Origin: Comamonadaceae bacterium
GTDB taxonomy: Bacteria; Pseudomonadota; Gammaproteobacteria; Burkholderiales; Burkholderiaceae_C
Length of the DNA stretch: 43,686 nt
Direction of reading: 5' to 3'
Assembly: GCA_947464995.1 (NCBI GenBank)
Contig: CANHZG010000003.1
Span: 1-43,686, forward strand
A model generated the notes under the pieces. That model saw only the letters and a list, made by a program, of their open reading frames with translations. It was not told the DNA's origin and searched no databases. A program made the position numbers and the translations under genes. Below, piece by piece: positions 23,977-39,827 of this stretch. Within the stretch, counting starts at the first letter, position 1. The number at the start of each line of letters is the position of its first letter.

Positions 23977-24100
23977 AGTCAGGCGGGTGGGGTTGGGGGC
24001 AAGAGGCGCTGTTTTTGGCGCCGGGCTGCTTATTCTACCTGCCTAAAATTTCAGCAGATGGAAGAATTTTTGGAATGGTTCATGCCCGGTTTCCCCTACC

Positions 24101-24106
24101 TATACT
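24101..24106 (+). promoter_or_regulatory. Candidate -10 box of the yqaA-like gene
   Basis: TATACT is a strong -10 match, nine bases before the ATG at 24116; the best -35 at proper distance (TTCATG, 24079-24084) is weak. The implied start point lies at or within about three bases of the start codon. Confidence 0.4.
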
Positions 24107-24115
24107 GCCCCATCC

Positions 24116-24592: not shown

Positions 24593-24611
24593 GCGCCACC
24601 GACGGCGGCCT

Positions 24612-25814
24612 TTAGGGTTTGACCGTGTCTTTGATTTCCAGCGCGATGCCTTGCGTGCCCAACGCAACCGGAGCGCTCAGGCCACTGAAATCGCCAGGCT
24701 GCGGTATGGCGTCACCGCTTTTGCTGATGCGCGCGCCCACCACCACCTGCGCGACAGAGGACAAACGGGCCGCTGGAGACATGGACTTACTGTCGTCCAA
24801 GGTAAACGCATAAGGCAGGTCTTTAACCTGCTTGCGCTCAGCGGCCAGGGGCATGCGGCTGTCAGCCGGTCGGGCAAAGATAAACACCGTGTCCGTCGGA
24901 CTGACCTGGGCGCGCAGCGCAGCAGACAAACTCACCGTGCCGCTGACCGAGGCGTTGGCGGCGCCGGGCTTAGTCGCTGGCGCGCCGCTGGCTGCCGTGG
25001 GCGCCGGGGGTGACAAAGGCCCAGAGGTGCCCGCAGGTTCGGGCGCGGGTGGGGGTGCACCGTTAGCCAGGCTGCGCGCTTCTTGCAAGCTGGAGACCAC
25101 GCGCTGCACCAGGGCATTTTCAGGTGGTCCCATTTTTTCCACCTGGCCCCAGTAGCGCACGGCCAAGGCGTAGTCCTTGCGGATAAAGGCGTCGGTTCCG
25201 GCCAGCGCCAGACCCTTGAGGTTGTTGGGATCGAGCTTGAGCGCGCGCTGGATCAAGGCCATGGGCTCGCCAGTGAGCGAGTGCTGGTTTTTGACCGCCA
25301 GGGCGTCGGCATAGTCCACCAGCAGCGAGGCGTCGTCTTTGCGCAAAGCCAAGGCGCGGGAATAGGCCCTTAGCGCGTCTTCGTTGCGTTCCATCACGCT
25401 ATACGAACGCGCCAGCATCGCCCAGCCTTCGCCGTCGTCGGGGTTTTGCTGCAGCCGCTCGGCCAGCTTGTCCACCATGGCCACAATTTGCGCCGCACTA
25501 CCTGTTTGTCCTGCGTCTTCACTGGCAGAGGCATCCTCGCGTCCGGCAGCACCGGTGTACCAGTACCCGGCGCCAGCCACCAGCACAATGGCCAAGGCCA
25601 GGCCAGCGAGCAAGCCCAACGGTGTTTTGCCTGGCGCATCCGCAGCGCCAGCCGCTGGCGTGTCGTGCAGCAGCAAATCGAGCAGTCGGCGCTCCAAGGC
25701 GGCGGTTTCTTGTGCTAGTTGGGTTTTCGTGAGCCGGCCTTGGTCATGGCGCTCCTGCAGTTGTGCCAGCTGGTGCTTGAAAGGGGAAACAAGGGGGTGC
25801 AAGGGATTCGCCAT
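24612..25814 (-). CDS. ccmI: Cytochrome c biogenesis protein CcmI (lacks the usual first membrane helix)
   Basis: An apocytochrome c chaperone of the System I heme-ligation complex; its periplasmic TPR domain holds the CxxCH-containing substrate C-terminus. The 400-aa protein has a cytoplasmic helical N-terminus (HQLAQLQERHDQGRLTKTQLAQETAALERRLLDLLL), one membrane helix at about 66-86 (LGLLAGLALAIVLVAGAGYWY), TPR repeats at about 110-245 (WAMLARSYSVMERNEDALRAYSRALAL), a Pro/Ala linker and a C-terminal beta-rich domain (about 295-400). Standard CcmI begins with another membrane helix before the loop; here a stop codon (25820-25818) lies two codons before the ATG, so no in-frame extension exists. 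Last gene of the ccm operon, seven to ten bases after ccmH. Confidence 0.9.
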   Translation of the reverse strand: MANPLHPLVSPFKHQLAQLQERHDQGRLTKTQLAQETAALERRLLDLLLHDTPAAGAADAPGKTPLGLLAGLALAIVLVAGAGYWYTGAAGREDASASEDAGQTGSAAQIVAMVDKLAERLQQNPDDGEGWAMLARSYSVMERNEDALRAYSRALALRKDDASLLVDYADALAVKNQHSLTGEPMALIQRALKLDPNNLKGLALAGTDAFIRKDYALAVRYWGQVEKMGPPENALVQRVVSSLQEARSLANGAPPPAPEPAGTSGPLSPPAPTAASGAPATKPGAANASVSGTVSLSAALRAQVSPTDTVFIFARPADSRMPLAAERKQVKDLPYAFTLDDSKSMSPAARLSSVAQVVVGARISKSGDAIPQPGDFSGLSAPVALGTQGIALEIKDTVKP

Positions 25815-25823
25815 GGCTCAATT

Positions 25824-26297
25824 TCAAGAAGAAGGGTGGTCCGGGGCCGCGCTCGGCTCTTCGGGCTCAAACTGGTCGGCCGCCATGCGGCTGCGTCGGC
25901 GCAGCACGATAAACAGCGAGCCCAAGCCGATCACCACCATAGCCGCTGGACCCAGCCATAACAGCGCCGTGATCGCCTTGAACGGCGGGCGGTACAGCAC
26001 AAAATCGCCGTAGCGCGCGGTCATGTAGTCGGTGATTTCCTGGTCGGTCTTGCCCGCTTGCAGCATTTCACGCACTTGGCGGCGCAGATCCACGGCCAGT
26101 TCGGCATGCGAGTCGGCAATCGTTTGGTTTTGGCACACCAGGCAGCGCAATTCGCTGGCAATGGTCAGCATGCGGGCTTCCAGTGCAGGGTTATCTGCGG
26201 CTGGTGCCGCATCGTTGGCCCAGGCGGCGCCCATCACACAGGCCAAAAGGACAGACAAAATGCCCGCCAACAGCAGACTTGTTGGGTGCTTAGCCAT
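25824..26297 (-). CDS. ccmH: Cytochrome c maturation protein CcmH (apocytochrome thiol reductase)
   Basis: Keeps the apocytochrome CxxCH cysteines reduced for heme attachment, in the periplasm. The 157-aa protein has a signal peptide at about 1-27 (SLLLAGILSVLLACVMGAAWA). The redox motif is in ELRCLVCQNQTIADSHA (C52, C55), the hallmark of the family, followed by LAVDLRRQVREMLQAGKTDQEITDYMTARYGDFVLYRPP. A C-terminal membrane helix (about 111-131, ALLWLGPAAMVVIGLGSLFIVL) anchors it. Its start overlaps the end of ccmG by eight bases. Confidence 0.95.
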   Translation of the reverse strand: MAKHPTSLLLAGILSVLLACVMGAAWANDAAPAADNPALEARMLTIASELRCLVCQNQTIADSHAELAVDLRRQVREMLQAGKTDQEITDYMTARYGDFVLYRPPFKAITALLWLGPAAMVVIGLGSLFIVLRRRSRMAADQFEPEEPSAAPDHPSS

Positions 26298-26820
26298 TGA
26301 GCTTCCTCACCAAAGGTTCAATTTGCGTTCGAATCACCTCGGGCGTCACCGGGCCGATGTGCTTGAAACGCACCACGCCCTCGCGGTCGATGATGAAGGT
26401 CTCGGGCACGCCGTAGACGCCAAAGTCAATGCCCACACGGCCATCCAAGTCCGACAGCGATGCGGTGTAGGGGTTGCCAAAGTCGGCCAGCCATTTCAGC
26501 CCGGCGGCGCGTTGGTCTTTGTAGTTCAGGCCGTAAATCGGCAGCGTTTTGGCCTTGGAAAACTCCACCAGCAGGGGATGCTCCTGGCGGCAGGCGACGC
26601 ACCATGAGGCCCATACGTTAAGCATCCAGACCTGGCCCAGCAGGTCATCGCGGGCAATCTTTTGTTCGGGCGCATCTAGCCGCGCCAACGCAAAGGCAGG
26701 CGCCGGTTTGCCAATCAGCGGGGATGGCACTTCCTTGGGGTCCAGCTTGAGCCCGGCGCCCAGGAACAGCACCAGTACCAAAAAGATACCCATGGGTAAC
26801 AAAAATTTCAGGTATTTCAT
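26290..26820 (-). CDS. ccmG: Thiol:disulfide interchange protein CcmG/DsbE
   Basis: A membrane-anchored periplasmic thioredoxin that reduces the CcmH-apocytochrome disulfide. The 176-aa protein has an N-terminal anchor (LKFLLPMGIFLVLVLFLGAGL, 4-24). The thioredoxin domain carries the active site WCVAC (C74, C77) in LNVWASWCVACRQEHP, and the CcmG-typical acidic insert YGLNYKDQRAAGLKWL. The cis-Pro region reads VYGVPETFIIDREGVV. I chose ATG 26820 because it overlaps the ccmF stop by four bases and gives a proper anchor; a longer frame would extend into ccmF. Confidence 0.95.
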   Translation of the reverse strand: MKYLKFLLPMGIFLVLVLFLGAGLKLDPKEVPSPLIGKPAPAFALARLDAPEQKIARDDLLGQVWMLNVWASWCVACRQEHPLLVEFSKAKTLPIYGLNYKDQRAAGLKWLADFGNPYTASLSDLDGRVGIDFGVYGVPETFIIDREGVVRFKHIGPVTPEVIRTQIEPLVRKLNG

Positions 26821-28775
26821 GCCGCCGTTCCCGTTTTGCGGCGGTAGCGCCGGTCGGTCACCGCCAGCCAGCCGCCCAGCGCCATAAGTAAGCAGCCGCC
26901 CCAAATCCAGTCAATAAACGGCTTGACGTAAACACGCACGATCCAGGCACCGCCCTCGACCTGCTCGCCCAGCGACACATACAGGTCACGCGTGACGCCG
27001 GCGTCGATTGCGGCCTCGGTCATCGGGTTTTGTTGCACGCGATAAATGCGCTTTTCCGGGCGCATCTCCAGCACCGATCCGCCCTCGCGCGCCACCTGCA
27101 TCTGGCCTTGCATGGCGACGTAATTCGGCCCTTGCAGCTCCTTGACGCCGCCAAAGGTAAAGGTATAGCCGCGCACCGTAGTGGTGTCGCCCACCGCCAT
27201 CTTGACGTCGCGCTCGACCTCGTAGGTCTTGACCATCACCACGCCAAAGCAAAACGCGGCAATGCCCAGGTGCGCCAACATCATGCCGGCCAGCGCGCGC
27301 GGAATTTGGCGCGCTTTGGCGGGTGCATCGGCCCAGGAACCGCCCGCTGGGTGGACACGCTCCCAGAGGTCGGTGGCCACCGAGCCCACCACCCAGAACG
27401 CCATCAACAGCCCCAAGGTCGAGACCAGGCGCACTTCACCGGCCAATGCACCCACGCCCAGGGAAGCCAGTACTGCCACTGCTGCGGCCCAGCGCAGGCG
27501 CAATGCAAGCGAGGGCAAATCGGTTTCCTTCCAGCGCGCCAAGGGGCCCACACCCATCAAAAACACGGTGGGCGCCATCAACGGCATAAACACCGCATCG
27601 AAATATGGCGGACCCACCGAAATCTTGCCCAGCCCCAAGGCGTCTAGCAACAGCGGGTATAGCGTTCCCAGCAAGATGGCCAGTGCCGCCACCAGCAAGA
27701 GCACGTTATTTCCTAAGAGCGCCGACTCTTTGGACCACAACGCAAAGCGCTTTCCCAATCCCACGGTAGGCGCACGCCAGGCGTACAAGGCGAAAGACGC
27801 ACCGACCACCACGGTCAAAAACGCCAAAATAAACAAACCCCGGCGCGGGTCGGTGGCAAAAGCGTGCACCGACGACAACACGCCCGAGCGCACCAAGAAC
27901 GTCCCCAAGAGCGAGAACGAAAACGCCAAAATAGCCAGCAGCACCGTCCAGGACTTGAAGCTATTGCGCTTTTCCGTCACCGCCAGCGAGTGGATCAGCG
28001 CCGTACCCAAAAGCCAGGGCATGAGCGAGGCGTTTTCCACCGGATCCCAAAACCACCAGCCGCCCCAGCCCAGTTCGTAATAGGCCCACGAACTTCCCAA
28101 GGCGATGCCAATGGTCAAAAACATCCAGGCCACGGTGGTCCAGGGCCGTGTCCAGCGCGCCCATGTGCTGTCCAGGTTACCGCCCAAGAGCGCGGCAATG
28201 GCAAAGGCAAAAGCCACCGAGAAGCCCACGTAACCCATGTACAACATGGGCGGGTGAATGACCATGCCCGGGTCTTGCAGCAAGGGGTTGAGGTCGCGAC
28301 CATCGGGCGGCGCGGGAAACAGCCGGTCAAACGGATTGGACGTGAGCAGCATGAACAGCAAAAAGCCCACACTGACCAAGCCCATCACCGCCAAAATGCG
28401 CGCCACCACAACCTGCGGCAAATGGCGGCTGAAAGCGGCCACCGCCACCGTCCACAAGCACAGCATTTGCACCCACAGCAGCAGCGAACCCTCGTGCCCG
28501 CCCCAAACGCCGGCAATACGATACGCCAGCGGCAAGGCAGTGTTGGAATTGGACGCCACATACAGCACCGAAAAATCGTGCCGCACAAACGAAGCCACCA
28601 GACAGACAAACGCCACCACCACGAGCACAAACAGCGTGTAAGCGCCCGGCCTGGCAATCGACATCCAGTCCCTGCGGCCCGTTGCTGCACCGGCCATCGG
28701 CACCGTGCCCAGCGCTAGGGCCACACCCAGGGCCAGCCACAGGGCGAAGTGGCCTATTTCAGGAATCAAAGTCAT
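26817..28775 (-). CDS. ccmF: Cytochrome c heme lyase subunit CcmF
   Basis: A large integral membrane subunit of the System I heme ligase that takes heme from CcmE and attaches it to apocytochromes. The 652-aa protein has about 14-15 membrane helices. The tryptophan-rich heme-handling motif is [19 protein letters not shown] near 240, preceded by conserved histidines in [11 protein letters not shown] and [14 protein letters not shown]. The C-terminal periplasmic domain (about 510-620) includes [19 protein letters not shown]. The start overlaps ccmE by four bases; the stop overlaps ccmG by four. Confidence 0.97.
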
Positions 28776-29227
28776 TTCGCAGGTACCAAAGTTTGCGCCG
28801 CCTTTGCGTTGGCAATAGCGGCGTTTTTTAAAGCCTCGGCGGCTTCGGGCGGCATGTAGTTCTCGTCGTGCTTGGCCAGCACCTCCTTGGCCTGGAAAAC
28901 GCCGTTTTCCAGCTGCCCCTGGGCCACCACGCCTTTACCCTCCTTGAACAGGTCGGGCAAGATGCCAGAGAACTCCACCGGCACCGTCTTGGCGGTGTCG
29001 GTCACCTCAAAGCTCACCTTCACGCCGTCTCGCTTGACGCTGCCGGCCACCACCAGGCCACCGAGACGAAACGTGCGTCCGTTGGGCACCTCTTTGGCGT
29101 CAATTTGGGTGGGGGTGTAAAAAAACACCAGATTGCTCTGGAAAGCGTTCAGCACCAGCGCCGTGGCGGCGCCGACAACGGCGACGATTCCCAGTGCGAT
29201 GGCCATGCGTTTGCGCCGTGGCGTCAT
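28772..29227 (-). CDS. ccmE: Cytochrome c maturation heme chaperone CcmE
   Basis: A periplasmic membrane-anchored heme chaperone that binds heme covalently through a histidine and passes it to CcmF. The 151-aa protein has a basic N-terminus and one helix (about 8-28), an OB-fold beta-barrel (45-115, [25 protein letters not shown]) and the heme motif [10 protein letters not shown] with H120 and Y124. Start and stop overlap ccmD and ccmF by four bases each. Confidence 0.97.
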
Positions 29228-29397
29228 ATGTCCGTGTCCTCTTTGTGTTCATGAACCTGTGCAATCGCACGACGCTGCCGCTGTCCTGCGGCGCGTACCT
29301 CCAACAGCAATACCAGCACCACCACCGAGTAGGAGCCCCAGACGTACAAGCCATAGCCACCCATAGCCCAAAAGTCGTTCCAGCTGGCCCAGATCAT
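29224..29397 (-). CDS. ccmD: Heme exporter protein CcmD
   Basis: A small membrane subunit that helps release holo-CcmE from the CcmABC complex. The 57-aa protein reads [20 protein letters not shown] at the start, then [19 protein letters not shown]: the one membrane helix, with the MGGYGLYVW motif typical of CcmD, followed by a basic tail. The ATG at 29397 overlaps the ccmC stop by four bases, which decides the start; the same frame is open further upstream only inside ccmC. Confidence 0.92.
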
Positions 29398-30122
29398 GCC
29401 GCCACCTCCTGCGCCCAGTGGGTGTGGCGCTCGCGCTCCAGAATAATGCTGCGCACCCGGTACAGGGCCATGGCGATGCTGTAGGCCCAAAAAGCCAAGG
29501 CCATCAGCAGCATCGCCCACAACATGGTTTGCGCCATGCTCGAACCCTTGGTGACAGACACCGAAGCGCCCTGGTGCAAGGTGTTCCACCATTTCACCGA
29601 AAAATAGATGATGGGCACGTTCACCGCCCCTACCAAGGCCAGCAGGCCACCAGCCTTGTCGGCGCGACGCGGGTCGTCAATGGCGCTGGTCAGGGCGATA
29701 TAGCCCATGTACAGAAAAAACAAAATCAACTCGGACGTCAGGCGCGCGTCCCACACCCACCAGGCGCCCCACATGGGCTTGCCCCACAGGGCACCCGTCC
29801 ACAGCGACAAAAAGGTAAACAGCGCACCCGTGGGCGCCAGGGCCTGGGTCATCATGCCCGACAGACGGGTGTTGAAGGTAAAGCCCAAAAATGCCCAAAA
29901 CGCCATGGCCAGGTAAATCACCATCGACATCCAGGACGCTGGCACGTGCACAAAGATGATGCGGTAGCCCTCGCCTTGCTGAAAGTCGGTGGGGGCGACA
30001 AAAAAGCCCAGGTACAAGGCGGCCAGCGCCAGCGCCGCCGCCAGCACGGCAAACGGCCGCCAGAGCTTGCCCGCCAAGGGGTAAAAGGTTTGGGGCGCAG
30101 CCCAATGGAAGATTTTCAACAT
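29394..30122 (-). CDS. ccmC: Heme exporter protein CcmC
   Basis: A membrane protein that presents heme to CcmE on the periplasmic side. The 242-aa protein has six membrane helices. The tryptophan-rich motif WGAWWVWDARLTSE near 120 and flanking histidines (IIFVHVPASWMSM and KWWNTLHQGASV) bind heme. The sequence is full length and typical. It lies three bases after ccmB and overlaps ccmD. Confidence 0.97.
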   Translation of the reverse strand: MLKIFHWAAPQTFYPLAGKLWRPFAVLAAALALAALYLGFFVAPTDFQQGEGYRIIFVHVPASWMSMVIYLAMAFWAFLGFTFNTRLSGMMTQALAPTGALFTFLSLWTGALWGKPMWGAWWVWDARLTSELILFFLYMGYIALTSAIDDPRRADKAGGLLALVGAVNVPIIYFSVKWWNTLHQGASVSVTKGSSMAQTMLWAMLLMALAFWAYSIAMALYRVRSIILERERHTHWAQEVAA

Positions 30123-30125
30123 GGT

Positions 30126-30791
30126 TTATTCCAGCGAAATACGCAGTGCCGCGGCACACATCCAGGGGCCAAAAAAGGCCGCCAATACCAGCATGGCCAT
30201 CAGAATCGACACATGGGCAGCGTAACCGATGCCGCTGATCTGGGCCTCCACCGCCCCGGCGCCAAATACCAGCGCCGGAATATACAAAGGCAGTACCAGC
30301 AGCGACAGCAGCACCTCGCCTCCACGCACGCCCAGCGTCAGCGCCGCGCCGACCGCGCCGATCAGCGACAACAAGGGCGTGCCCACCAGCAGCGTCAGCA
30401 CCAAAGCCTCCATGGCGCCGCCGTCCAGGTCAAACTGCACGGCCAGCAGTGGGGCCAACAAAGCCAGGGGCAGACCCGACAACAGCCAATGCGCCAGTAT
30501 TTTGGCCCCCACCAGCACCGGCAGCGGCGTGGACGACAAGGCCATTTGCTCCAGCGTTCCGTCCTGAAAATCGGCCGAGAATAGTCGCCCGAGCGAAAGC
30601 AGGCTGGCCAGCAAAGCGCCTACCCACAAAATACCTGGGGCGATCTTGCGCAAGACGCCCAGCTCGGGGCCGATGCCCAAGGGGAAAAGCGTGGCGACCA
30701 CGACAAAAAAGAACAGCGCGGTCAGCACCTCGCTCTTGCGGCGCATAGCCAGGCGCAGATCGCGCTGCACAACGGCAACAAATGAATTCAT
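30126..30791 (-). CDS. ccmB: Heme exporter protein CcmB
   Basis: The integral membrane subunit of the CcmAB ABC complex. The 221-aa protein has six membrane helices, an N-terminal RDLRLAMRRKSEVLTALFFFVVVATLFPLGIGP, and the characteristic LFSADFQDGTLEQMALSSTPLPVLVGAK loop. The start overlaps ccmA by four bases. It works with CcmA to release heme-loaded CcmE from CcmC. Confidence 0.96.
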   Translation of the reverse strand: MNSFVAVVQRDLRLAMRRKSEVLTALFFFVVVATLFPLGIGPELGVLRKIAPGILWVGALLASLLSLGRLFSADFQDGTLEQMALSSTPLPVLVGAKILAHWLLSGLPLALLAPLLAVQFDLDGGAMEALVLTLLVGTPLLSLIGAVGAALTLGVRGGEVLLSLLVLPLYIPALVFGAGAVEAQISGIGYAAHVSILMAMLVLAAFFGPWMCAAALRISLE

Positions 30792-31402
30792 GCGCCCAAC
30801 CGCAGGCTTGCACCCAACCCGCGCAAGAGGAGCGGCTGGTGGCTAGTCAAAAGCGCCATGCCACCTTGGCTGACGTGCTCAGAAATGGCCTGCGCCACCA
30901 GGTCCTGGGCCTGCGCATCCAGCGCCACGAAGGGTTCGTCTAACACCCACAGGGGCGCGCTTTGCAAAAACAGCCGCGCCAACGCCACGCGGCGCTTTTG
31001 GCCCTGCGATAGCACCCGCACCGGCAAACGGGTGCGCCCGCGCAAGCCCAGTCGCTGCAAGGCCGATACCGCTTTCGAGTGCTCGAAGCTGCGTCCCGCA
31101 ATGGCGGCGTCGGCTTGCAGGTTTTCCAGCGCGCTAAGTTCTTCTTTAAGCGCCAGTGCGTGACCCAAGTACAGCAGTTCAGCATGAAACGCCTCTGCCG
31201 CCTGGGCCAGCGGCTGCCCGCGCCAGCGCACCTGGCCCTGGGCCGGTGGCGTAAACCCACTTACGATGCGCAGCAAACTGGTTTTGCCCGATCCGTTGCC
31301 GCCTTCCAAGTGCAGCCACTGGCCAGCGTTCAAGTCGAAATTCACCCCAGAGAACAGGGTTTGGTCGCCGCGAACGCAAGACAGGTCAGAAACAGAAAGC
31401 AT
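30788..31402 (-). CDS. ccmA: Heme exporter ATP-binding protein CcmA
   Basis: The ATPase of the CcmABCD complex. The 204-aa ABC protein has Walker A GGNGSGKTS (34-42), the signature VLSQGQKRRVALARLF, Walker B LWVLDEPFVALD and the switch histidine in LLTSHQPL. The signature LSQGQ rather than LSGGQ is normal for CcmA. It starts 11 bases after the stop of the tetraheme cytochrome gene, with no promoter-sized gap and no strong Shine-Dalgarno, so the ccm operon is probably read from the electron-conduit genes upstream. Confidence 0.96.
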   Translation of the reverse strand: MLSVSDLSCVRGDQTLFSGVNFDLNAGQWLHLEGGNGSGKTSLLRIVSGFTPPAQGQVRWRGQPLAQAAEAFHAELLYLGHALALKEELSALENLQADAAIAGRSFEHSKAVSALQRLGLRGRTRLPVRVLSQGQKRRVALARLFLQSAPLWVLDEPFVALDAQAQDLVAQAISEHVSQGGMALLTSHQPLLLRGLGASLRLGA

Positions 31403-31413
31403 GCAGTGGTGGT

Positions 31414-32007
31414 TTATTCGTCGGGATCTACGTATTCTTTGGGCAGGTGGTGGGCAATACCTTTGTGGCAGTCAATGCAGGTTTTACCCTCTTCCTTGGC
31501 TTTCATGTGCTTCTTATATGGCGTTTGCTTTTGCAGCTCGGGGCTCATGGCCTCAAACGCATGGCAATTGCGGCATTCGCGGGAATTATTTTCTTTCATG
31601 CGGTCCCACTCGTGGGTTGCCAGCTCCATGCGATGCGCCTCGAACTTTTCTTTGGTGTCGATATAGCCCGTGAGCTTACCCCACACTTCGAAACTGGCCT
31701 TGGCCTTGCGGACCATTTTATGCGTCCACTCCTTGGGCACATGGCAGTCCGAGCAGGTAGCCCGTACGCCGGTGCGGTTGGAGAAGTGAATCGTCTCTTT
31801 GTATTCCTGGTACACGTTGTCCCGCATTTCGTGGCAAGTGGTGCAAAACTCCAGCGTGTTGGTAGCCTCCATGCCGGTATTAAACGCACCCCAAAACAAG
31901 ATGCCGATCACAAAAAACAGGCTCGAGATCGCCAGCAAGGAATACTTTGCGCTGGGCTTGTTGACCCATGTCCAAAAGCGCTTGATCGCACCGGGGTTGT
32001 TTTCCAT
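31414..32007 (-). CDS. Tetraheme c-type cytochrome of the NapC/NirT/CymA family
   Basis: An inner-membrane quinol dehydrogenase (or quinone reductase, if run in reverse) that links the quinone pool to periplasmic electron carriers. The 197-aa protein has one N-terminal helix (about 23-41, SLLAISSLFFVIGILFWGAF) and a periplasmic domain with four heme sites: CTTCH (C55), CSDCH (C85), CRNCH (C145) and CIDCH (C177). The block TLEFCTTCHEMRDNVYQEYKE is typical of NapC/NirT proteins. Its place after the decaheme cytochrome and barrel genes matches CymA in Mtr/Mto-type extracellular electron-transfer loci. No nitrate or TMAO reductase genes neighbour it, which argues against NapC or TorC roles. Confidence 0.93.
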   Translation of the reverse strand: MENNPGAIKRFWTWVNKPSAKYSLLAISSLFFVIGILFWGAFNTGMEATNTLEFCTTCHEMRDNVYQEYKETIHFSNRTGVRATCSDCHVPKEWTHKMVRKAKASFEVWGKLTGYIDTKEKFEAHRMELATHEWDRMKENNSRECRNCHAFEAMSPELQKQTPYKKHMKAKEEGKTCIDCHKGIAHHLPKEYVDPDE

Positions 32008-32040
32008 TTTTTTGACTCCTTGCTGTTAATCCAATGGGAA

Positions 32041-32058
32041 CGGGACCGTTCGGTCCCG
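32041..32058 (-). other. Intercistronic hairpin between barrel and tetraheme genes
   Basis: cgggaccg and cggtcccg form a perfect 8-base stem around tt, inside the 94-base gap between the barrel gene (stop 32102) and the tetraheme cytochrome gene (start 32007). No T-run follows on the minus strand, so this looks like an mRNA-processing or stability element setting relative expression, not a full terminator. Confidence 0.6.
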
Positions 32059-32101
32059 TCCGTTTTACGAAGGTTGATGGGGGTGGACCTGGGCCAGTTC
32101 C

Positions 32102-34429
32102 CTAGAAGCTGTAGACGTAGGTCACTGTCATCACATTGAGTGAATAGTTGGGGGCTGTTTGGTTGGTCGCCAGCATCGAATTCGGGTTGGAGCCGTAGAG
32201 CAATCCGTTGTAGTAATAGTCCTGGCTCACCAGTTTTTGGAACAGGTAGCCCAGGGTCACTTTGCTGGCCTTGTCGACCTGGTAGTTGCCGGTGAGTTTG
32301 AAGCTAACCAACTCGGCTTTGACCTCGGGCAAGGATCCGCAGGACAGGATGCGGGCATCGCTACACGCTACGCCACCCGTGGTGGTGGTGCTGTAGTTCA
32401 ACACTGTGGCGTAGTTGGAGGCGCCCACGGAGTAGCTCAGGTCGCCCACCACTTCCAGCCGGCCGCCCATCAGGCCGCTTTTTTTGCTGCTCAGGCCCAC
32501 CGTCAAGTCTTCGGTTTTGAGCCGGTTGCTCCAGGTGGCGCCCGCCGGTATGGCGATGGCCGTGGCGGATGCGGCGCTTGCGCCCTGGGCCAGCGAGCGC
32601 TGCTCGTCGGTCAGGTCCCGCTCGTTGGACTGCTGTGTGGCATAGGCCGTGACCGAGCTGGTGTCGCTGTAGTTGTAGGTGGCGTCCAGGTTGGCACCCC
32701 TGCCCGAACCGGACTGCACGCCGTAGGTCGAGTCGTAGCTGTCGTTGCTGTAGCGGGCACTCAGGCCCACGCTCAAGCGCTCATTGGCTTGCCAGTTCAG
32801 GCCGGCCTTGGTCATTTGCTGGGTGCGCGAGGCGTCAAAGAAGGGGTAGAAACCCAGGAAGTCGCCACCGTTCAATCCCTTGGTGGTGCCCATTGTGGTG
32901 CCGGTATCGCCACCGCGCACGCCGATCATGGCCACGATGGCTTTGGGGTCGGACGTGGTCACGCGCTTGCTGTACGAATAGCCCACATTGGTCGACAAGT
33001 CTTCGGTAGCCGCCGCCCGGTAGGTGGCGCTGAGCTTGTCGTCGTTGCTAGAGACTGCGACCACGCAGTTGGTGCCAGCGGTGTAGCTGCTTCCACCCGT
33101 GGCGTACTGGTTACACCAGCGCGACACGTCTTCGCGGTTGTAGGCCAGGCGTACGCGCTGGGTCTTGTCGATGCGGTAGTCACCGGCCAACTCCGCTTGG
33201 TTCTTTTTGAAGCTCAGCGGGGTATTGGGGTAGTAGGCAATGTTATTGGCACCAATGGCCTGGAAGTTGTAAATCGACGACGCCGTTTGGTTGTCACGCA
33301 GGTCGTATTTGTAGCCAGCCGACAACGTCAAGTCACGTGTGGTTTGGTCGGTGACTTTCAGGTCCGCGTGCTGGGTCACCACCACGCCGTCGAGCGAGGT
33401 CTTGGAGTTGCCTGCCGCCGTGCCCGTGTTGACGTACATGAACGAGTCCACCACAAACGGGTCGTTTTGGGTGTTGCGCGCCGATGAAACCGAGCCCGTG
33501 AGCTTGGTCGTAGGTGTGAGCCCGTAGCCGCCGCTCAGGCTGAGTTGGTGAAAGTCATTGCCTGGCGCCGTGCTCATGGTCTGGCTGTTGGCGGCGGTGG
33601 CAAAGGTGGTGAAACTCACCCGGTCATAACCATCCCGAAAGAATGAGCCGTAGTAGGAACCACTCAGGTGCGCGTTATCACCCGTCCAGTTCAGCGCCAG
33701 GTTGACCGTGTCGGTCTGGTAATTGGTCGGGTTGGGCAAGATGGATACCGCTTCACCAGCAGGTGCGGTGCCCGATGTGGCAAAACCGGCCGAACCAAAA
33801 GCCATCAGTTTGGAGCCGGTTTGGTCCAGGTGGTTGTAGTCAAACTTCAGGCCCAGGCGGGAGTTGATTTCCATCCCGGCGCTCAAGATGGTGTTCTTGC
33901 GGGTGCTGTCAATATTGAGGTTGCGGTAGGCCGCCAACTGGGCCGCCGTCAGGCTCGTTGTGTTGCTGGCCAAGCCAAAGCCTGGCAGGGTAAAGGTGTT
34001 GGACCCGGCGGTCCCGGTGTACGGCGTTTGGTAGCTGTCTGAGAGGTTGTGGCGCAACTCGTCGTAGTTCAGGCCAATGCTCCATTGCCCTTGGTCACTG
34101 ACATTGGCGCCCAGTGCGCGCGAGGTCGTTCCCAGGTCGCTGGCCTTGATTTCCCAGCGCTGGGTGCCCGTGTCCGCACCGTAGGCGTCGCCGCCGCGGA
34201 TGTTGACATTCACAACCACGCCGCCATCGGCCTTGTTGAGCCCGTTGTATTCGCCAAACTTGGCCGAAGACTGGGTCGGGGCGCCCACGCCCACCTCGAC
34301 TGTGCTGGTGGGGCGGGTGAGCGCGTCGGCACTGTCTTCCTGGGCAAACGACAAGGCGGGCGCCACACAGGCGGCCAACACGGCCGCTGCCAAGCGGCTC
34401 AGGGTGAAAAGTTCTTTATTCGATTTCAT
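32102..34429 (-). CDS. mtoB: MtrB/PioB-family outer-membrane beta-barrel (decaheme-associated porin)
   Basis: The barrel that sheathes the decaheme cytochrome so electrons cross the outer membrane. The 775-aa protein has a signal peptide (about 1-30, LSRLAAAVLAACVAPALSFA, mature from QEDSADA), then many alternating amphipathic strands with frequent Tyr/Leu/Asn pairs (for example GQWSIGLNYDELRHNLSDSY and LNLALNWTGDNAHLSGSYYG-like repeats), ending VMTVTYVYSF with the C-terminal Phe expected of outer-membrane barrels. It lacks the N-terminal CxxC of Shewanella MtrB and is closer to PioB/MtoB. Mature cysteines occur only as two close pairs (WCNQY...TNCVV and ACSDARILSC), probably disulfides in surface loops. 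It starts 16 bases after the decaheme gene. No MtrC-type surface cytochrome is present. Family assignment is strong; direction of electron flow is not. Confidence 0.9.
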   Translation of the reverse strand: MKSNKELFTLSRLAAAVLAACVAPALSFAQEDSADALTRPTSTVEVGVGAPTQSSAKFGEYNGLNKADGGVVVNVNIRGGDAYGADTGTQRWEIKASDLGTTSRALGANVSDQGQWSIGLNYDELRHNLSDSYQTPYTGTAGSNTFTLPGFGLASNTTSLTAAQLAAYRNLNIDSTRKNTILSAGMEINSRLGLKFDYNHLDQTGSKLMAFGSAGFATSGTAPAGEAVSILPNPTNYQTDTVNLALNWTGDNAHLSGSYYGSFFRDGYDRVSFTTFATAANSQTMSTAPGNDFHQLSLSGGYGLTPTTKLTGSVSSARNTQNDPFVVDSFMYVNTGTAAGNSKTSLDGVVVTQHADLKVTDQTTRDLTLSAGYKYDLRDNQTASSIYNFQAIGANNIAYYPNTPLSFKKNQAELAGDYRIDKTQRVRLAYNREDVSRWCNQYATGGSSYTAGTNCVVAVSSNDDKLSATYRAAATEDLSTNVGYSYSKRVTTSDPKAIVAMIGVRGGDTGTTMGTTKGLNGGDFLGFYPFFDASRTQQMTKAGLNWQANERLSVGLSARYSNDSYDSTYGVQSGSGRGANLDATYNYSDTSSVTAYATQQSNERDLTDEQRSLAQGASAASATAIAIPAGATWSNRLKTEDLTVGLSSKKSGLMGGRLEVVGDLSYSVGASNYATVLNYSTTTTGGVACSDARILSCGSLPEVKAELVSFKLTGNYQVDKASKVTLGYLFQKLVSQDYYYNGLLYGSNPNSMLATNQTAPNYSLNVMTVTYVYSF

Positions 34430-34445
34430 AATAAATCCCCTTGAA

Positions 34446-35453
34446 TTAGCGTTGGAAGTAACCGCCGGCAGGGCTGTTGGTCCCGTGCACCTGCCTATGG
34501 CAGTTCATGCACGAAGCGCCCACCAGGTTTTTGCTGGGGTAGAGCGCGGCACCCGAGGGGCCTACGGTAGAGAGTCCGCCTTGGCGACCTGCTGCATTGG
34601 GGCCGGCCGGTGTGCCGCTGGCATGGGTACCGTCATGGCACTCTTGGCACAGGAACGGTGCACGTGATTTCAGCAAAGGCGTGATGTTCGAGCCGTGGGG
34701 CGTGTGGCAGTTCGAGCAGTCTTCGGTCACCGGTTGGTGTTCGAACAGGAACGGACCGCGTTTTTCCGCATGGCACTGGTAGCAGGTCTCGGTCACGGTG
34801 TTTTTCTTCAACATCTTGGGGCCGGTCGATCCGTGCGGGTTGTGGCAGTCCGAGCAACCCACTTTGCCCTCGGCCACCGGGTGGTGCGAGATTTTTTTGC
34901 CGTCAGCGCGTTGGTCTTTGTGGCAGCTGTAGCAGACTTCCGCCTGGGTCTTTTTGTCTTGCAGCTTGTCTTTCGGACGGTGCACCACGTGGCAGTCGTT
35001 GCAGGCCACTCCATTGTTTTGGTGTTGTGCGCCATCCCAGTTGTTGCGCTTGCCACCCTTGTGGCAGCTAAGGCACTGGTCAGCACGGTCTTTGTCGCCT
35101 GAGGCGGCATACACGCCCTTCTTGAACACATGGTCGGGAGCCACACGGCCTTTGCCGCCGGCGTCACCCTTTAAGTGGTCGGCGCTGGCGCCATGGCAAG
35201 ACTGGCAGGTAGGCGTGCGCGCATCGCCGCGCACGCCGTGTTTGGTTTGGTACAGGCTCAAAACAGGTGCGGTCTCACTCTCGTCGTGGCACTTGGTACA
35301 GACCGCATCCTTTTTCAAGGCCTCTTGCGCCAAGGCCGACTTGGTCGCCCCGCTAGCGAGCTCGGGCAGTTTGTTGTCCTGCGCCCATGCCGAAGTGGCC
35401 ACCAGGCCACAGGCCACCATGCCGGCGGCTAAGAAGGTACGGATTCTTTTCAT
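34446..35453 (-). CDS. mtoA: Decaheme c-type cytochrome of the MtrA/MtoA/DmsE family
   Basis: A periplasmic multiheme wire inserted in the outer-membrane barrel. The 335-aa protein has a signal peptide (about 1-24, FLAAGMVACGLVATSAWA, then QDNK). It contains exactly ten CxxCH motifs, with first cysteines at 52, 83, 127, 141, 164, 190, 214, 236, 259 and 305. Distal histidines recur in HGV, HHPV, HQPV and HGTN-like contexts, and the CSDCHNPHGSTGPKM and CSNCHTPHGSNITPL repeats are typical of MtrA, which has about 333 residues. I chose ATG 35453, with GGGGA seven bases upstream; ATG 35465 would add four residues. It lies 41 bases after the monoheme cytochrome gene. In Sideroxydans the homologue MtoA acts in Fe(II) oxidation, in Shewanella MtrA acts in Fe(III) reduction. 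Confidence 0.94.
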   Translation of the reverse strand: MKRIRTFLAAGMVACGLVATSAWAQDNKLPELASGATKSALAQEALKKDAVCTKCHDESETAPVLSLYQTKHGVRGDARTPTCQSCHGASADHLKGDAGGKGRVAPDHVFKKGVYAASGDKDRADQCLSCHKGGKRNNWDGAQHQNNGVACNDCHVVHRPKDKLQDKKTQAEVCYSCHKDQRADGKKISHHPVAEGKVGCSDCHNPHGSTGPKMLKKNTVTETCYQCHAEKRGPFLFEHQPVTEDCSNCHTPHGSNITPLLKSRAPFLCQECHDGTHASGTPAGPNAAGRQGGLSTVGPSGAALYPSKNLVGASCMNCHRQVHGTNSPAGGYFQR

Positions 35454-35494
35454 GTGTTTCCCCATCAGGTTGTCAGGTGTGCGGTGTGGGGGCC

Positions 35495-35854
35495 TTACTG
35501 GGCCAAGATCCACTGCACCAGGTTTTTGATCTGGGCCATGTCTTTGGCCGGAGAGGTCTTGACGACCTTGTGTTCTTCTTCGTGCCCGTCTGGGAACTTG
35601 GCTTTTTCGCCCGACATGATGTGTTCGATCAAACGCGCTTCAGCCCCGGCCTTGCCCTTGTACTTTTCAGCCACGCTCTTGTACGAGGGGCCGTCTTTGT
35701 CTTTGTCAATGGCGTGGCATTTCAGGCAGTTGTTCTGCCGCGCCAGGCCTTTGGCGGCCTCTACGTCCACCTCAGCATGCACAGCGCACGCTGCGCCAAA
35801 CAGTGCTGCACCGACCAAGCACGCCGCCAAACGGGATTGAAATTTCTGTGTCAT
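35495..35854 (-). CDS. Periplasmic monoheme class I cytochrome c (MtoD-like)
   Basis: A small soluble electron carrier. The 119-aa precursor has a signal peptide (about 1-27, LAACLVGAALFGAACAVHA, mature from EVDVE). The single heme motif is CLKCH (43-47), with KDKDGPSYKSVAEKYKGK after it as in cytochrome c551/552-type proteins. The axial methionine is either M80 or M106. Lys/Asp-rich surfaces suggest docking to multiheme partners. I chose ATG 35854, preceded by AAGGTGA; a longer start at 35899 would spoil the signal peptide. It is the first gene of the cytochrome-conduit cluster. A monoheme MtoD accompanies MtoAB-CymA in Fe(II)-oxidising Sideroxydans, which is the closest known arrangement I can name. 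Confidence 0.9.
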   Translation of the reverse strand: MTQKFQSRLAACLVGAALFGAACAVHAEVDVEAAKGLARQNNCLKCHAIDKDKDGPSYKSVAEKYKGKAGAEARLIEHIMSGEKAKFPDGHEEEHKVVKTSPAKDMAQIKNLVQWILAQ

Positions 35855-35973
35855 TGCGTTCACCTTGTCAAAAGTACCGAAGAGGGGTCTGGCAGGCACA
35901 GGCCAACCAGAGACTTGGGTGCAGTTTGCAGATGAAGGCAGTGGGGCGCTATCGGACAGGGATGAAAGTGGGC

Positions 35974-35989
35974 CTAGGAATATTCCTAG
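35974..35989. promoter_or_regulatory. Perfect 16-bp palindrome upstream of the cytochrome cluster
   Basis: ctaggaatattcctag is fully self-complementary, in the 152-base gap between the response regulator stop (36007) and the monoheme cytochrome start (35854). It is AT-centred with no T-run, so it looks like an operator more than a terminator. The adjacent LuxR-type response regulator is an obvious candidate binder. No clear -35/-10 pair was found nearby. Confidence 0.55.
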
Positions 35990-36006
35990 CCCAGATCAGA
36001 AAACGG

Positions 36007-36657
36007 CTAGTCGCGCGTCGCGTCGTCGAGCAAATGGTGTTCCAGTGCGTAGCGAACCAGCTCGACCTGGCTGCCCATGTTCATTTTTCCCAAAATATGG
36101 GATTTGTGGGTGCTGACGGTTTTGATGCTCAGTGAGAGTTCCAGGGCCATGGCCGTCATGCTCACGCCGCGCACGATGCGGCTAAACACCTCAAACTCGC
36201 GGTCCGTCAGCGCCAGGTGGGGCAGATCATGGCCACCGGGGGCCACGTCGTTGGCCAGCAGTTCGGCCACCTGGGGGCTGATGTAACGCCCTCCGGCAGC
36301 CACCTTGCGCAGGGCCGGCACAAGCAAATCCATATCGCCCTCTTTGGACAGGTAGCCCGAGGCCCCGGCGCGGATGGCGCGCACGGCGTACTGCTCCTCG
36401 TGGTGCATGCTAAAAATCAATATCGGCAGGCGTGCGCGTTCGGCCCGGATCAGCTTGATCAACTCCAGCCCGTTGCGCCCGGGCATGGAAATGTCCAGTA
36501 TCACCACCGCCCAGTCCCGTTTGCGCACCCACTCCAGCGCCGCGTTGCCGTTGTCGGCCTCACCGGCCACCACAAAATCGGGTGTGTCGGAGAGCAGGTT
36601 TTTGAGGCCATTGCGGATGATGGCGTGGTCGTCAGCCACCAGCACTTCGTGTTTCAT
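36007..36657 (-). CDS. NarL/LuxR-family two-component response regulator
   Basis: A 216-aa transcription regulator. The receiver domain (1-120) has the acidic pair D9-D10, phosphoacceptor D55 in VVILDISMPG and K105 in GYLSKEGD. The LuxR-type DNA-binding domain (about 148-208) reads LTDREFEVFSRIVRGVSMTA, then LSLSIKTVSTHKSHILGKMN. Its start overlaps the stop of the sensor kinase by four bases, so they are a cognate pair. It lies directly upstream of the multiheme cytochrome cluster on the same strand, so control of extracellular electron transfer genes is likely, but the sequence does not prove it. Confidence 0.94.
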   Translation of the reverse strand: MKHEVLVADDHAIIRNGLKNLLSDTPDFVVAGEADNGNAALEWVRKRDWAVVILDISMPGRNGLELIKLIRAERARLPILIFSMHHEEQYAVRAIRAGASGYLSKEGDMDLLVPALRKVAAGGRYISPQVAELLANDVAPGGHDLPHLALTDREFEVFSRIVRGVSMTAMALELSLSIKTVSTHKSHILGKMNMGSQVELVRYALEHHLLDDATRD

Positions 36658-38705
36658 ACCGCGCCCTCCTGCGCCAGGGCTGCGCCTTGCGGGGGCGCGG
36701 CCAAAGTCTCCAATGCAATGCGCACCTGCACCGACGTGCCAGCGCCCGCACTGCTGACCAACTCCAGGCTGCCGCCCACCATACGGGCGCGCTCACGCAT
36801 GCTAATCAGGCCAATGCCGTCACTCCCGCGCTCAGCGCCCATGCCACAGCCGTCGTCGCGCACGGTCAAGACCAAAAAACCGTCCTGCGCCACCAGATCC
36901 AGCCACACCGCGCGGGCCTGCGCGTGGCGCACCACGTTGGTCAAAGACTCTTGCACGATGCGAAACAGCGCCGTGGCCAGCTCATCGCCCTGCACCAGAT
37001 CTTGCGCGGGCAGATTCATCACCACCTGCAAACCACTGTGCTTGCAAAACTCACGGGTTTGCCACGCTACGGCATCGGCAAAACCTAGCTCGTCCAAAAT
37101 CAAGGGGCGCAGCTCGGACGATATGCGGCGCACCGACATGATGGCCCCGTCCAGCGTTTTGCGCATCTCGTCCACCGCCTCCTTAGACGACAGCGCACTA
37201 TGGCCACGCCCGGCGATCCAGGCTAGGCTGAGTTTGAGACCGGTGAGTTGCTGGCCCAGGTCGTCGTGCAACTCACGCGAAATACGGCTGCGCTCCTGCT
37301 CGCGCACCGTTTGCTGCGAGGCATACAAGTCACGCAGCTCCTGGTTCAAGGCGGCCAGCTCGCGCTGGGCGCGGCGCTGCTGGGTCACGTCGCGCAGCAC
37401 GGCAGTCATTTGCAGCTTGCCGTCAATTTCGGTCTTGGAGATGGACGACTCGATCGGAAACTCGCTGCCGTCGCTGCGCCGGCCGTAAATTTCCAGCTGC
37501 TCAGCCATGGCCCGCGGTACCTCGCGGGTCTGGGAAAAATCGCGGACCTGCGCGTCATGGCGCGAGCGAGCGCGCTCGGGCAACAAAAGACTCAGCGGCT
37601 GGCCTATGGCGGCCTCGGAAGACAGGCCAAACATGGCCTGCGCCGCCGGGTTAAAGAGCTGGATGGTCAGCCCCTCATCAACCGCCACGATCGCGTCCTT
37701 GACCGAATCCACCGTGTGCAAATAGCGCTCGCTGACGTTGTTCAGCGCCGCTTCAAGCAGCTCCTTGCGGCGCAGCTTTTGCGTCAGCACAAAAGCCATA
37801 AACACGGTGAATAGGCACAGCGCTGCCACGGACAGGGCAATGGGAACAGCAATTTCCCGCCAGGCCGCCAGGCTTTGGTCCTCCTCGTCGGTCACGCTCA
37901 GCAACAGGGGAAAGTCGTTCAAACGCCCCAGCGCAAACAGTTGGCGCGCGCCGTCGCCGCTGGTGTGAACCATGCTGCGCACCGCCTGGCCGCGCGCCGG
38001 CAGCTGCTCCCCGGTCAGCTCTACCGCGGGCCCGCCCAGGTCATTGCCGCGGTGGGGAAAACTGGCCATCAAGGTGCCGTCTTCCTGGTAAATCGCCATG
38101 GGGCGCACAAAGTCAAGTTTGACCTGGTAAAAAAGCGCCTCAAACCGGGCAATGTCCAGGGCCGCCACCACCACGCCGCGAAAGCTGTCATCGTCGTTGC
38201 GCATGGCGCGCGCCATGTGCACCGTCCAACGCCCGTCATCGTGGTTTCGGTGCGGCTTGTCCATCACGTAGGTGCTGCTTTTTCCACTGGCCAGCGCCTG
38301 AAAATACGGCTCATCGTCCACCGCACGGTCCATGGCCTGCATGCTTTCGGACGAATTCACCACCTGCCCTTGGGCATCTACCAGCGAGAGCGAGCGCAGC
38401 TGGCGCATGCCCGCCACGCGGGTGGCCAATAGCAAATGGGTCATCTCACTGTCCAGCGGAATTTTGCTGCCATAGCTCGACGCCAAGCGCTCCTGCACGC
38501 CCTGGAGCACGATGTCTGCACCCTGCAAGTACTGCTGAGTTTGCTCCATGAACATTTCGGTCAGGCTCACCGTCTCCAGGCGCGCGTGCTCTAGCTCGCG
38601 CAGGCGCAAGCGCCAAAGCAAGAACGTGGACGACAGCAGCACGGCGACCAAGATGGCCACCGCCAGAACACCCACGGCCTGGGAAGAACGAATTTGCAGA
38701 CGCAT
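36654..38705 (-). CDS. Membrane sensor histidine kinase with dCache-like and PAS domains (NarX/DegS-type)
   Basis: A 683-aa sensor. One membrane helix (about 10-33, AVGVLAVAILVAVLLSSTFLL) is followed by a periplasmic PDC/dCache-like domain (34-280, including LRSLSLVDAQGQVVNSSES and FRGVVVAALDIARFEALF), a second helix (284-306), and a PAS domain (about 320-440, DSVKDAIVAVDEGLTIQLFN). The kinase part is of the HisKA_3 type: the H-box RSRISRELHDDLGQQLTG holds the phosphoacceptor His near 480, then HATPase motifs TNVVRHAQAR near 588 and DDGCGMG near 620. I chose ATG 38705, with GAGG just upstream; earlier starts lie across inverted repeats. The periplasmic ligand is unknown. The kinase precedes and overlaps its response regulator gene. 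Confidence 0.93.
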   Translation of the reverse strand: MRLQIRSSQAVGVLAVAILVAVLLSSTFLLWRLRLRELEHARLETVSLTEMFMEQTQQYLQGADIVLQGVQERLASSYGSKIPLDSEMTHLLLATRVAGMRQLRSLSLVDAQGQVVNSSESMQAMDRAVDDEPYFQALASGKSSTYVMDKPHRNHDDGRWTVHMARAMRNDDDSFRGVVVAALDIARFEALFYQVKLDFVRPMAIYQEDGTLMASFPHRGNDLGGPAVELTGEQLPARGQAVRSMVHTSGDGARQLFALGRLNDFPLLLSVTDEEDQSLAAWREIAVPIALSVAALCLFTVFMAFVLTQKLRRKELLEAALNNVSERYLHTVDSVKDAIVAVDEGLTIQLFNPAAQAMFGLSSEAAIGQPLSLLLPERARSRHDAQVRDFSQTREVPRAMAEQLEIYGRRSDGSEFPIESSISKTEIDGKLQMTAVLRDVTQQRRAQRELAALNQELRDLYASQQTVREQERSRISRELHDDLGQQLTGLKLSLAWIAGRGHSALSSKEAVDEMRKTLDGAIMSVRRISSELRPLILDELGFADAVAWQTREFCKHSGLQVVMNLPAQDLVQGDELATALFRIVQESLTNVVRHAQARAVWLDLVAQDGFLVLTVRDDGCGMGAERGSDGIGLISMRERARMVGGSLELVSSAGAGTSVQVRIALETLAAPPQGAALAQEGAV

Positions 38706-38723
38706 GGTCCTCAACCTGGGAAA

Positions 38724-38751: not shown

Positions 38752-38758
38752 ACATATC

Positions 38759-38834: not shown

Positions 38835-39827
38835 CTAGACAGGTGCTGGCACCCAGGGCTCCACCGTCACCCGCACATTCAGCGTGTGGTTGGCGCCACC
38901 CTGCAACACACCGCGCAGGGGCGACACGTCGGCAAAGTCGCGCCCCACCGCCAGGCGCACATAGTCCAAGCCCGGGGTGCCCAGGCCGGCGCGGTTGTTG
39001 GTGGGGTCTAGATCCAGCCAGCCGCCATGGGGCAGGCCGCGCGCACCGCCCAGGTCCGCCAGGTACACCGCCACCCATGCGTGCGAGGCATCCGCGCCGA
39101 TCAGGCGCGGCTGGCCGGGTGCGGGCTCGGTGAGCAGGTAGCCGCTGACGTAGCGCGCAGCCAAACCCACTGAGCGCAAGCAAGCCAGCATCACGTGGGC
39201 AAAGTCCTGGCACACACCCCGGCGCTGGGCCAGCACCTCGAGCGCCGGGGTGCTGATTTCGGTGCTGTGCGACTCGTACACAAAATCGTGGTGCACGCGC
39301 TCCATAAGGCAACACACCGCCTGCGCCAGCGGCCGTCCAGCGCCAAAGCTGGGTGCCGCATAGGCCGCAAAAGCCGCATCCACCGGGGCGTGGTGCGATG
39401 CGTAACTGAACTCACTGGCCGCCATACCGGGCTGGCCCGAGGCGTAGCACAGCAGGTCGCGTACGGACTCCCACGCCATGCCCGTCAGTTGTGCCTGCGC
39501 CAGCGCGACTCGCCCATCGTCCATTGGCGCAGCGTCTGGGGCTTCCATGGCATCGACCAGGTCACCCTGGGGCCAGTGGGTGCGCACCTGGCTTTGGGCG
39601 CACACGCGCAAATGCTGGTGAAACGAAGACATCGCCCAGTAGCTGCGGTGGTTGCCAAAAGCGTCCATTCGGGTGTCGGGGTCGGCACACGGCGGGTCCA
39701 CATCCATGCGGTGGCCCAGACAGGTTTGGTAGGGCGTATGGGGCGGCTGCAGGTGCGCCATGTGCTGCGCGGTGTCCACGCCGGGGGCGTAGTCGTAGCT
39801 GGTTTCGTGGGTGATGCGCAGCAGCAT
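38835..39827 (-). CDS. Transglutaminase-like cysteine peptidase-family protein
   Basis: A 330-aa cytoplasmic protein without signal peptide. The N-terminal beta-rich domain (MLLRITHETSYDYAPGV through about 90) is the bacterial transglutaminase-like N-region. The catalytic triad of the papain-like core is complete: C206 in RRGVCQDFAHVMLA, H249 in GADASHAWVAVYL and D274 in GGWLDLDPTNN. Its start follows the stop of the ATP-grasp/alpha-E gene without a single base between (TAAATG). Proteins of this type regularly cluster with circularly permuted ATP-grasp and alpha-E genes and probably cleave or transfer peptide bonds in a peptide-tag system; the substrate is unknown. Confidence 0.93.
   Translation of the reverse strand: MLLRITHETSYDYAPGVDTAQHMAHLQPPHTPYQTCLGHRMDVDPPCADPDTRMDAFGNHRSYWAMSSFHQHLRVCAQSQVRTHWPQGDLVDAMEAPDAAPMDDGRVALAQAQLTGMAWESVRDLLCYASGQPGMAASEFSYASHHAPVDAAFAAYAAPSFGAGRPLAQAVCCLMERVHHDFVYESHSTEISTPALEVLAQRRGVCQDFAHVMLACLRSVGLAARYVSGYLLTEPAPGQPRLIGADASHAWVAVYLADLGGARGLPHGGWLDLDPTNNRAGLGTPGLDYVRLAVGRDFADVSPLRGVLQGGANHTLNVRVTVEPWVPAPV

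Follow-up and report, generated by a model that had tools for sequence, protein, structure and literature searches.

Why do the genes of an electron conduit stand immediately before an operon for cytochrome c maturation? The question is raised by the window analysed here, the complete 43,686-base contig C3 of a Comamonadaceae metagenome-assembled genome (2.74 Mb, 279 contigs, completeness 89%, contamination 3.5%) from an organism that we take to be a freshwater bacterium, perhaps of the genus Rhodoferax. The whole block mtoD-mtoA-mtoB-tetraheme gene-ccmA-I occupies positions 24612-35854 of its minus strand. With moderate confidence, the sequence comparisons suggest an MtrC-less conduit of the Mto type under its own two-component system, whose switch would raise both the conduit and the sole ccm operon, inward electron flow being the likeliest direction. 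The arrangement itself is real, conserved and of a known kind; what is added here is evidence that the switch belonging to the conduit probably now also controls a ccm operon of housekeeping function.

Gene calls and family profile matches confirmed every gene, place and strand given in an earlier note on this DNA. The features of the block are as follows:

35495-35854, minus strand: mtoD, periplasmic monoheme cytochrome (1 CxxCH; 139.7 bits to 4XXL)
34446-35453, minus strand: mtoA/mtrA, ten-heme periplasmic cytochrome (TIGR03508, 284 bits, cut-off 192)
32102-34429, minus strand: mtoB/mtrB, outer-membrane barrel (TIGR03509, 442 bits, cut-off 240; PF11854, 396 bits)
31414-32007, minus strand: tetraheme NapC/NirT-type (ImoA/CymA-like) quinone oxidoreductase (4 CxxCH; PF03264, 250 bits)
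31403-31413, minus strand: tetraheme-ccmA gap of 11 nt
30788-31402, minus strand: ccmA (TIGR01189, 221 bits)
30126-30791, minus strand: ccmB (TIGR01190, 250 bits)
29394-30122, minus strand: ccmC (TIGR01191, 233 bits)
29224-29397, minus strand: ccmD (TIGR03141, 41 bits)
28772-29227, minus strand: ccmE (NF009729, 209 bits)
26817-28775, minus strand: ccmF (TIGR00353, 761 bits; sole copy found in the assembly)
26290-26820, minus strand: ccmG (DsbE) (TIGR00385, 177 bits)
25824-26297, minus strand: ccmH (operon order; only the NrfF model TIGR03147, 110 bits, below cut-off)
24612-25814, minus strand: ccmI (TIGR03142, 29.8 bits, cut-off 29.3; CycH domains)

The CxxCH count of MtoA/MtrA is exactly 10 (220 bits to 6r2q_A), and 1 + 10 + 4 gives the 15 hemes per conduit set that the earlier note had claimed. 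Its description of a complete ccmABCDEFGHI also holds, all nine genes standing in one run (ccmH with a score under the cut-off of the one model that it matches), as does that of mostly 4-base overlaps (A/B, C/D, D/E, E/F and F/G; the G/H overlap is 8 bases, while B/C and H/I are separated by short gaps). The tetraheme protein reaches 294 bits against TIGR02161, under the subfamily cut-off of 310.6. Assignment to the Mto type is borne out by MtoD, whose match 4XXL is reported as the Sideroxydans MtoD (PMC4412085); the window protein keeps KFPDGHEEEHK, and its heme may be bis-His.

Synteny was compared over 58 loci around MtrB (29 from the genus, 29 from the family) and 40 loci around CcmF (genus). 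In relatives the order is flank gene-kinase-regulator-mtoD-mtrA-mtrB-tetraheme-ccmA-I-vtt-dusB, and the layout with the tetraheme gene and ccmA on one contig is present, complete or partial, in 14 genomes including the window; this synteny suggests more than a chance neighbourhood. In two genomes (G473 and G476; loci L161/L228 and L229), mtrA at the same locus is 62-63% identical and the barrel has 931 residues (mtrB 27%), and this divergent mtrAB is flanked by conserved mtoD and tetraheme genes, apparently a swap of the mtrAB cassette. A plasmid origin was considered and rejected: of 72,556 plasmid records just one matches MtrA, a Photobacterium replicon of 2.1 Mb whose protein is 33% identical.

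The ccm operon is housekeeping and not dedicated to the conduit, since the assembly showed no other system for cytochrome c maturation; it must therefore also serve the other c-type cytochromes. One ccmF was found and, in this 89%-complete assembly, no ResB (System II); a genome of the same layout that is 99% complete (G483) likewise has one CcmF and no ResB. The second ccm operon that the earlier note had named as a possible refutation was looked for as well, and no second ccmF appeared at the same completeness.

Upstream of the conduit lie a kinase, a regulator and a palindrome that are absent from the earlier note:

36654..38708 (about), minus strand: sensor histidine kinase (Pfam dCache_1, PAS, HisKA_3, HATPase_c; a longer GTG start is possible, 38795)
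36007-36657, minus strand: NarL/FixJ-type response regulator (Response_reg and GerE; 4-nt overlap with the kinase)
35975-35988, no strand: palindrome TAGGAATATTCCTA, candidate operator of the regulator, proposed from its conservation between regulator and mtoD
35949..35956, minus strand: candidate second half-site TCCGATAG (18 bp away from TAGGAATATTCCTA; read by eye)

A HisKA_3 kinase paired with a receiver-GerE regulator places the system in the NarL/FixJ class of two-component systems. The regulator has 97 NCBIfam matches, of which none of the best 25 reaches its cut-off, nor does any kinase equivalog. The regulator ends 152 nt before mtoD. Of the 29 genus loci, 18 have it next to the conduit, and several of the remainder are truncated at a contig end. 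When the stretches downstream of the regulator are aligned, a match of at least 11/14 to the palindrome is present in 34 of 41 distinct stretches, compared with 3 of 880 mononucleotide-shuffled stretches, none of them higher; a second element, TCCKATA, commonly follows 18 bp downstream (by eye). An exact palindrome, with either A or T allowed at position 8, is present in 12 of 103 genus genomes, always at a single place, and 11 of these 12 are MtrB-positive (Fisher p 5e-5; here and in all genus counts and tests below, relatedness among genomes is ignored). It lies just upstream of mtoD in all 11, in 10 of them between regulator and mtoD; in the remaining one (G438) the regulator is 2.4 kb away. 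The reversed control pattern is found once in the 103 genomes. The window's own assembly holds a single exact copy, near-copies on contigs C64, C63 and C1 having been set aside as lying within open frames. The exact copy is lacking in 27 of the 38 MtrB-positive genomes, many of which have a near copy, and in some of these 27 no such regulator lies on the piece covered. Collectively, these results make the palindrome a candidate operator of the response regulator.

The 11-base step from the tetraheme gene to ccmA was confirmed. Counting the window, 12 of 14 genomes have a gap of 11 nt and the other 2 a gap of 8 nt. A terminator in it, which the earlier note had set as a refutation, was looked for and none was found; 11 nt is too short for a terminator or a whole promoter. 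The short gap and the lack of a terminator suggest that transcription would run on into ccmA-I. A wider promoter and terminator scan (24000-39000) was uninformative, with 1 promoter-like site against 2.9 expected and 23 terminator-like sites against 17.8 (standard deviation 4.4).

Further evidence comes from three relatives without an MtrB match (G433, G478 and G487; 99, 100 and 91% complete), which share the flank and the ccm operon but lack the kinase, the regulator and the conduit. The flanking gene is the following:

38835..39827, minus strand: gene upstream of the block, which precedes ccmA in the conduit-less relatives (no NCBIfam match; presumably transglutaminase-like)

In these genomes it is separated from the ccmA start by 107-108 nt. 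The three upstream stretches are alike (z 6.0 and 6.4 for G433 against the other two, and 26.2 for the remaining pair), whereas they do not resemble either of the two intergenic stretches upstream in the window (z -1.2 to 1.3); the window retains just the last ~10 nt before ccmA. Local searches with the conduit-less stretches against window positions 24-40 kb remained within shuffles in 5 of 6 comparisons. With so little of this upstream sequence in the window, expression of ccm probably relies on transcripts that read through from the conduit. In a ccm tree of 46 genomes, the window genome has G478 and G487 as its sister group (support 1.0). G433, whose placement is weak (0.81), and G463/464/466/494 stand elsewhere in the same clade. 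These scattered positions suggest that the conduit came or went several times at or near the locus. Independent deletion as the origin of the conduit-less sites is unlikely, the upstream stretches being alike. The flanking-gene trees have 5 and 9 tips, with some weak nodes, and two genomes with tandem arrangements (G451, G493) are outside the ccm trees, as no ccmF lies on their pieces.

Recurrence was followed with an MtrA alignment scan of one genome per species (84,980 species), which gave 592 stretches with 581 confirmed loci; the best 80 of these loci were taken, and they overlap the genus loci, for example at L231/G486, L232/G488, L233/G440 and L250/G476. At least two ccm genes are present at 20 of the best 80; among those loci that span 18 kb or more, the figure is 13 of 35. 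Six loci (four Comamonadaceae, one uncultured beta proteobacterium and Ramlibacter albus) have ccm in tandem 68-128 nt behind the tetraheme gene, and at further loci among the 80 it is divergent to the conduit. Close MtrA relatives of the window (L234, L235, L263) are joined to another ccm lineage; to judge from these sequences, conduits that resemble one another stand beside ccm operons of different lineages. In a ccm tree with 68 tips the linked or unlinked state changes 8 times, against a mean of 22.7 for shuffled labels. The 8 could be up to two fewer, since G492 (contig cut at ccmA) and G440 (contig begins at ccmE) were labelled 'not linked' on truncated contigs; 'linked' here means near a conduit, so that gain or loss of a conduit also counts as a change. 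Frames with 24-25 CxxCH were also seen near ccm operons of another lineage (L163, in G448, and L179, in G437).

From these data we infer a signal, a binding of the regulator, a read-through and a direction of flow. The sensor kinase would detect a cue and phosphorylate the regulator, which would bind the palindrome before mtoD and turn on mtoD-mtoA-mtoB-tetraheme; transcription would continue from the tetraheme gene into ccmA-I, which here lacks the upstream sequence present in conduit-less relatives. With such read-through, one switch would raise the 15-heme conduit together with the machinery for every c-type cytochrome. Electrons would most likely be drawn inward through MtoA/MtoB from Fe(II), minerals or reduced organic matter, and may serve dark or light-driven autotrophy. 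It is tentatively proposed that promoter capture lies behind this order: a self-regulated conduit module would have landed between the housekeeping ccm operon and its promoter, so as to gate all c-type cytochromes, those of respiration and photosynthesis included, and the event would have been repeated independently with other ccm lineages.

As regards direction, the MtrC/OmcA family (TIGR03507) has 0 matches in the 89%-complete assembly, in agreement with the earlier note, which had found no such surface cytochrome and had seen in its absence a sign of Fe(II) oxidation or of a donor that touches MtoA directly; the absence favours uptake but does not prove it. In the MtrA tree the window falls in a 43-tip clade in which 1 locus has a neighbouring cytochrome of at least 8 hemes in the stretch covered. 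Outside the window, the assembly holds genes that the earlier note does not mention: RuBisCO with cbbX, prk and bchP, as well as pufM fragment-pufC-crtA-crtD-crtC (all on C217, C278 and C250; L219, L220, L227). The lack of MtrC, the MtrA clade and these phototrophy and RuBisCO genes favour electron uptake, possibly light-driven.

The reaction-centre, bacteriochlorophyll and RuBisCO genes make light-driven uptake a live option, in which outside electrons would feed the reaction centre via MtoD. In PioABC of Rhodopseudomonas, outside electrons feed the reaction centre. The PioABC conduit of R. palustris TIE-1 resembles the present one in being of MtrAB type without MtrC, in a genome with phototrophy genes, but here no PioC-like high-potential iron-sulfur protein was found among the neighbours covered by family scans, and MtoD and the tetraheme protein stand instead. 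A reaction-centre match is present in 10 of the 17 genomes with window-type MtrB (at least 44% identical, a cut of our own that leaves G473 and G476 outside the 17) against 23 of 86 others (Fisher p 0.02), with the window genome counted on a pufM fragment of 41 residues at a contig end. On the other hand, 7 of the 17, some of them incomplete, show no reaction centre, nor do G473 and G476, and over all MtrB types there is no association (13/38 vs 20/65). Taken together, light-driven uptake is possible, though somewhat unlikely. As for the route, a path from MtoD to CymA is contradicted for Sideroxydans, where MtoD is reported not to bind MtoA or the tetraheme ImoA; its electrons may pass to an acceptor of high potential (PMC13390432). 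If the host is a phototroph, that role would fall to the cytochrome of the reaction centre.

It is also conceivable, though rather unlikely, that conduit and ccm are passive neighbours, with ccm on its own promoter within the tetraheme or mtoB gene and the conduit at a permissive site. The only maturation system found would be needed at all times, it occupies the site without a conduit in three relatives, and ccm is described as native to the site in Parahaliea (PMC8805035). Several observations, of which the first also favours passive neighbourhood, weigh against a shared switch. Synonymous identity in the tetraheme gene is highest at codons 91-105 (0.81 vs 0.69 overall), and one of the six local comparisons, inside mtoB, exceeds all shuffles (22.5 vs a maximum of 18), although a close sister is unmatched there. 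The promoter scan models the sigma-70 consensus only, which leaves room for intragenic promoters. The six other tandem gaps of 68-128 nt are long enough for a separate promoter, and at three Gallionella-type loci ccm lies 700-2060 nt behind the tetraheme gene. Conduits of the same subfamily without adjoining ccm (G474 and G448, as well as G440, seen for 1.1 kb only) indicate that linkage is not required. As to the palindrome, 7 of the 41 stretches score below 11/14, and an exact copy occurs in a genome without an MtrB match (G404; L213, C1:1824452-1824465), where the 11 kb examined contain no match to a conduit or a regulator. Furthermore, with the assembly 89% complete, the absence of a second maturation system is not proved. 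Against passive neighbourhood stand the tetraheme-ccmA gap, which is either 11 or 8 nt in every one of the 14 genomes, the absence of a synonymous conservation peak at the 3' end of the tetraheme gene (last three windows 0.73, 0.70 and 0.76, near the mean) and the recurrence of the linkage with different ccm lineages.

Outward flow, in which the conduit would reduce Fe(III), humics or electrodes, is unlikely. Rhodoferax MIZ03 is reported both to oxidise and to reduce iron (PMC8552755), MtrAB alone to reduce dissolved Fe(III) and electrodes in Shewanella (PMC10734462), and MtrCAB to be reversible (PMC8805035). By contrast, no MtrC was found in the assembly, MtoD and the tetraheme protein belong to the Sideroxydans set, MtrA falls in an MtrC-poor clade, and RuBisCO and phototrophy genes are present.

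Across the 103 genus genomes CcmF, full or partial, is present in 37 of 38 MtrB-positive and 34 of 65 MtrB-negative genomes, and ResB in 1 of 38 and 29 of 65, respectively. CcmF was matched in 96 of 103 at E 0.001 or better, of which 71 are counted (65 above cut-off and 6 partial at contig ends); the 25 weak matches dropped comprise 24 short ones in the frames of other proteins and one 26-residue end piece (G419). ResB was matched in 34 of 103 and counted in 30; those dropped are G424, G444 and G479 (39-46 bits, short, above cut-off) and G473 (18.8 bits, below). All four are MtrB-positive, and including them gives 5/38 vs 29/65 (p 0.001). As a separate observation, Systems I and II are nearly mutually exclusive (66 genomes with CcmF only, 25 with ResB only, 5 with both and 7 with neither; with the four dropped matches 62, 25, 9 and 7). 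The earlier note's own explanation, a ccm copy dedicated to matching the conduit's heme demand, agrees with these counts and with a tight and recurrent linkage, but is already weakened and very improbable, for no other system was found for the remaining cytochromes c, CcmF occurs in 34 genomes without MtrB, and the three conduit-less relatives retain the same ccm at this locus.

Comparison with known systems places the shared-switch arrangement more precisely. The Mto cluster of Sideroxydans lithotrophicus ES-1 likewise has mtoD, mtoA, mtoB and the tetraheme ImoA/CymA and no MtrC. Two Sideroxydans-titled loci, not ES-1 itself (L240 and L245), have MtrA 65-70% and tetraheme proteins 61-74% identical to those of the window, with no ccm within the 15.5 and 21 kb covered; unlike these, the present locus has the kinase, regulator and palindrome before the conduit and ccm after it. 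All nine genes of System I, CcmABCDEFGHI, are found here too, but behind an electron conduit. The earlier note's 'directly continuous' conduit and ccm is true of the window but not unique to it, since mtrCAB-ccm adjacency was reported in 2022: Baker et al. (PMC8805035) describe eight mtrCAB clusters, six next to a complete ccmA-I and two next to an incomplete one, with no duplicate System I, System II elsewhere in 4 of 8, and MtrC required. The present locus shares the complete System I operon without a duplicate, and differs in that no MtrC and no System II were found and ccm follows in tandem after 11 nt. A further difference is the conserved pair of regulator and palindrome; the main text of that paper nowhere uses 'two-component', 'response regulator' or 'histidine kinase' (0 occurrences). 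The MtrC-less tandem form is a variant of this published adjacency; for that form, the regulator pair and the palindrome no earlier report was found in a literature search that covered mostly papers available without subscription.

Two observations concern other parts of these contigs. Between flanking gene and kinase, L077 (G483) and L075 (G471) have 1373 nt, against 71 nt in L080 and L081, and the beginning of this stretch resembles, by eye, a piece of an acyltransferase. At window positions 3-5489, a UvrA-like frame, 1829 aa or longer and with ABC ATPase parts that recur along it, runs off the contig end.

For the organism and its genus, the adjacency seen earlier becomes a testable regulatory design, with a single conserved candidate operator before both conduit and ccm. 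The conduit-less ccm alleles of G433, G478 and G487 would provide a natural control for testing if acquisition of extracellular electron transfer rewires cytochrome c biogenesis at all, and the palindrome may serve as a rare genomic tag for such conduits in the genus. With its phototrophy and RuBisCO genes, the clade is a candidate case, beyond the usual models, of electron uptake driven by light.

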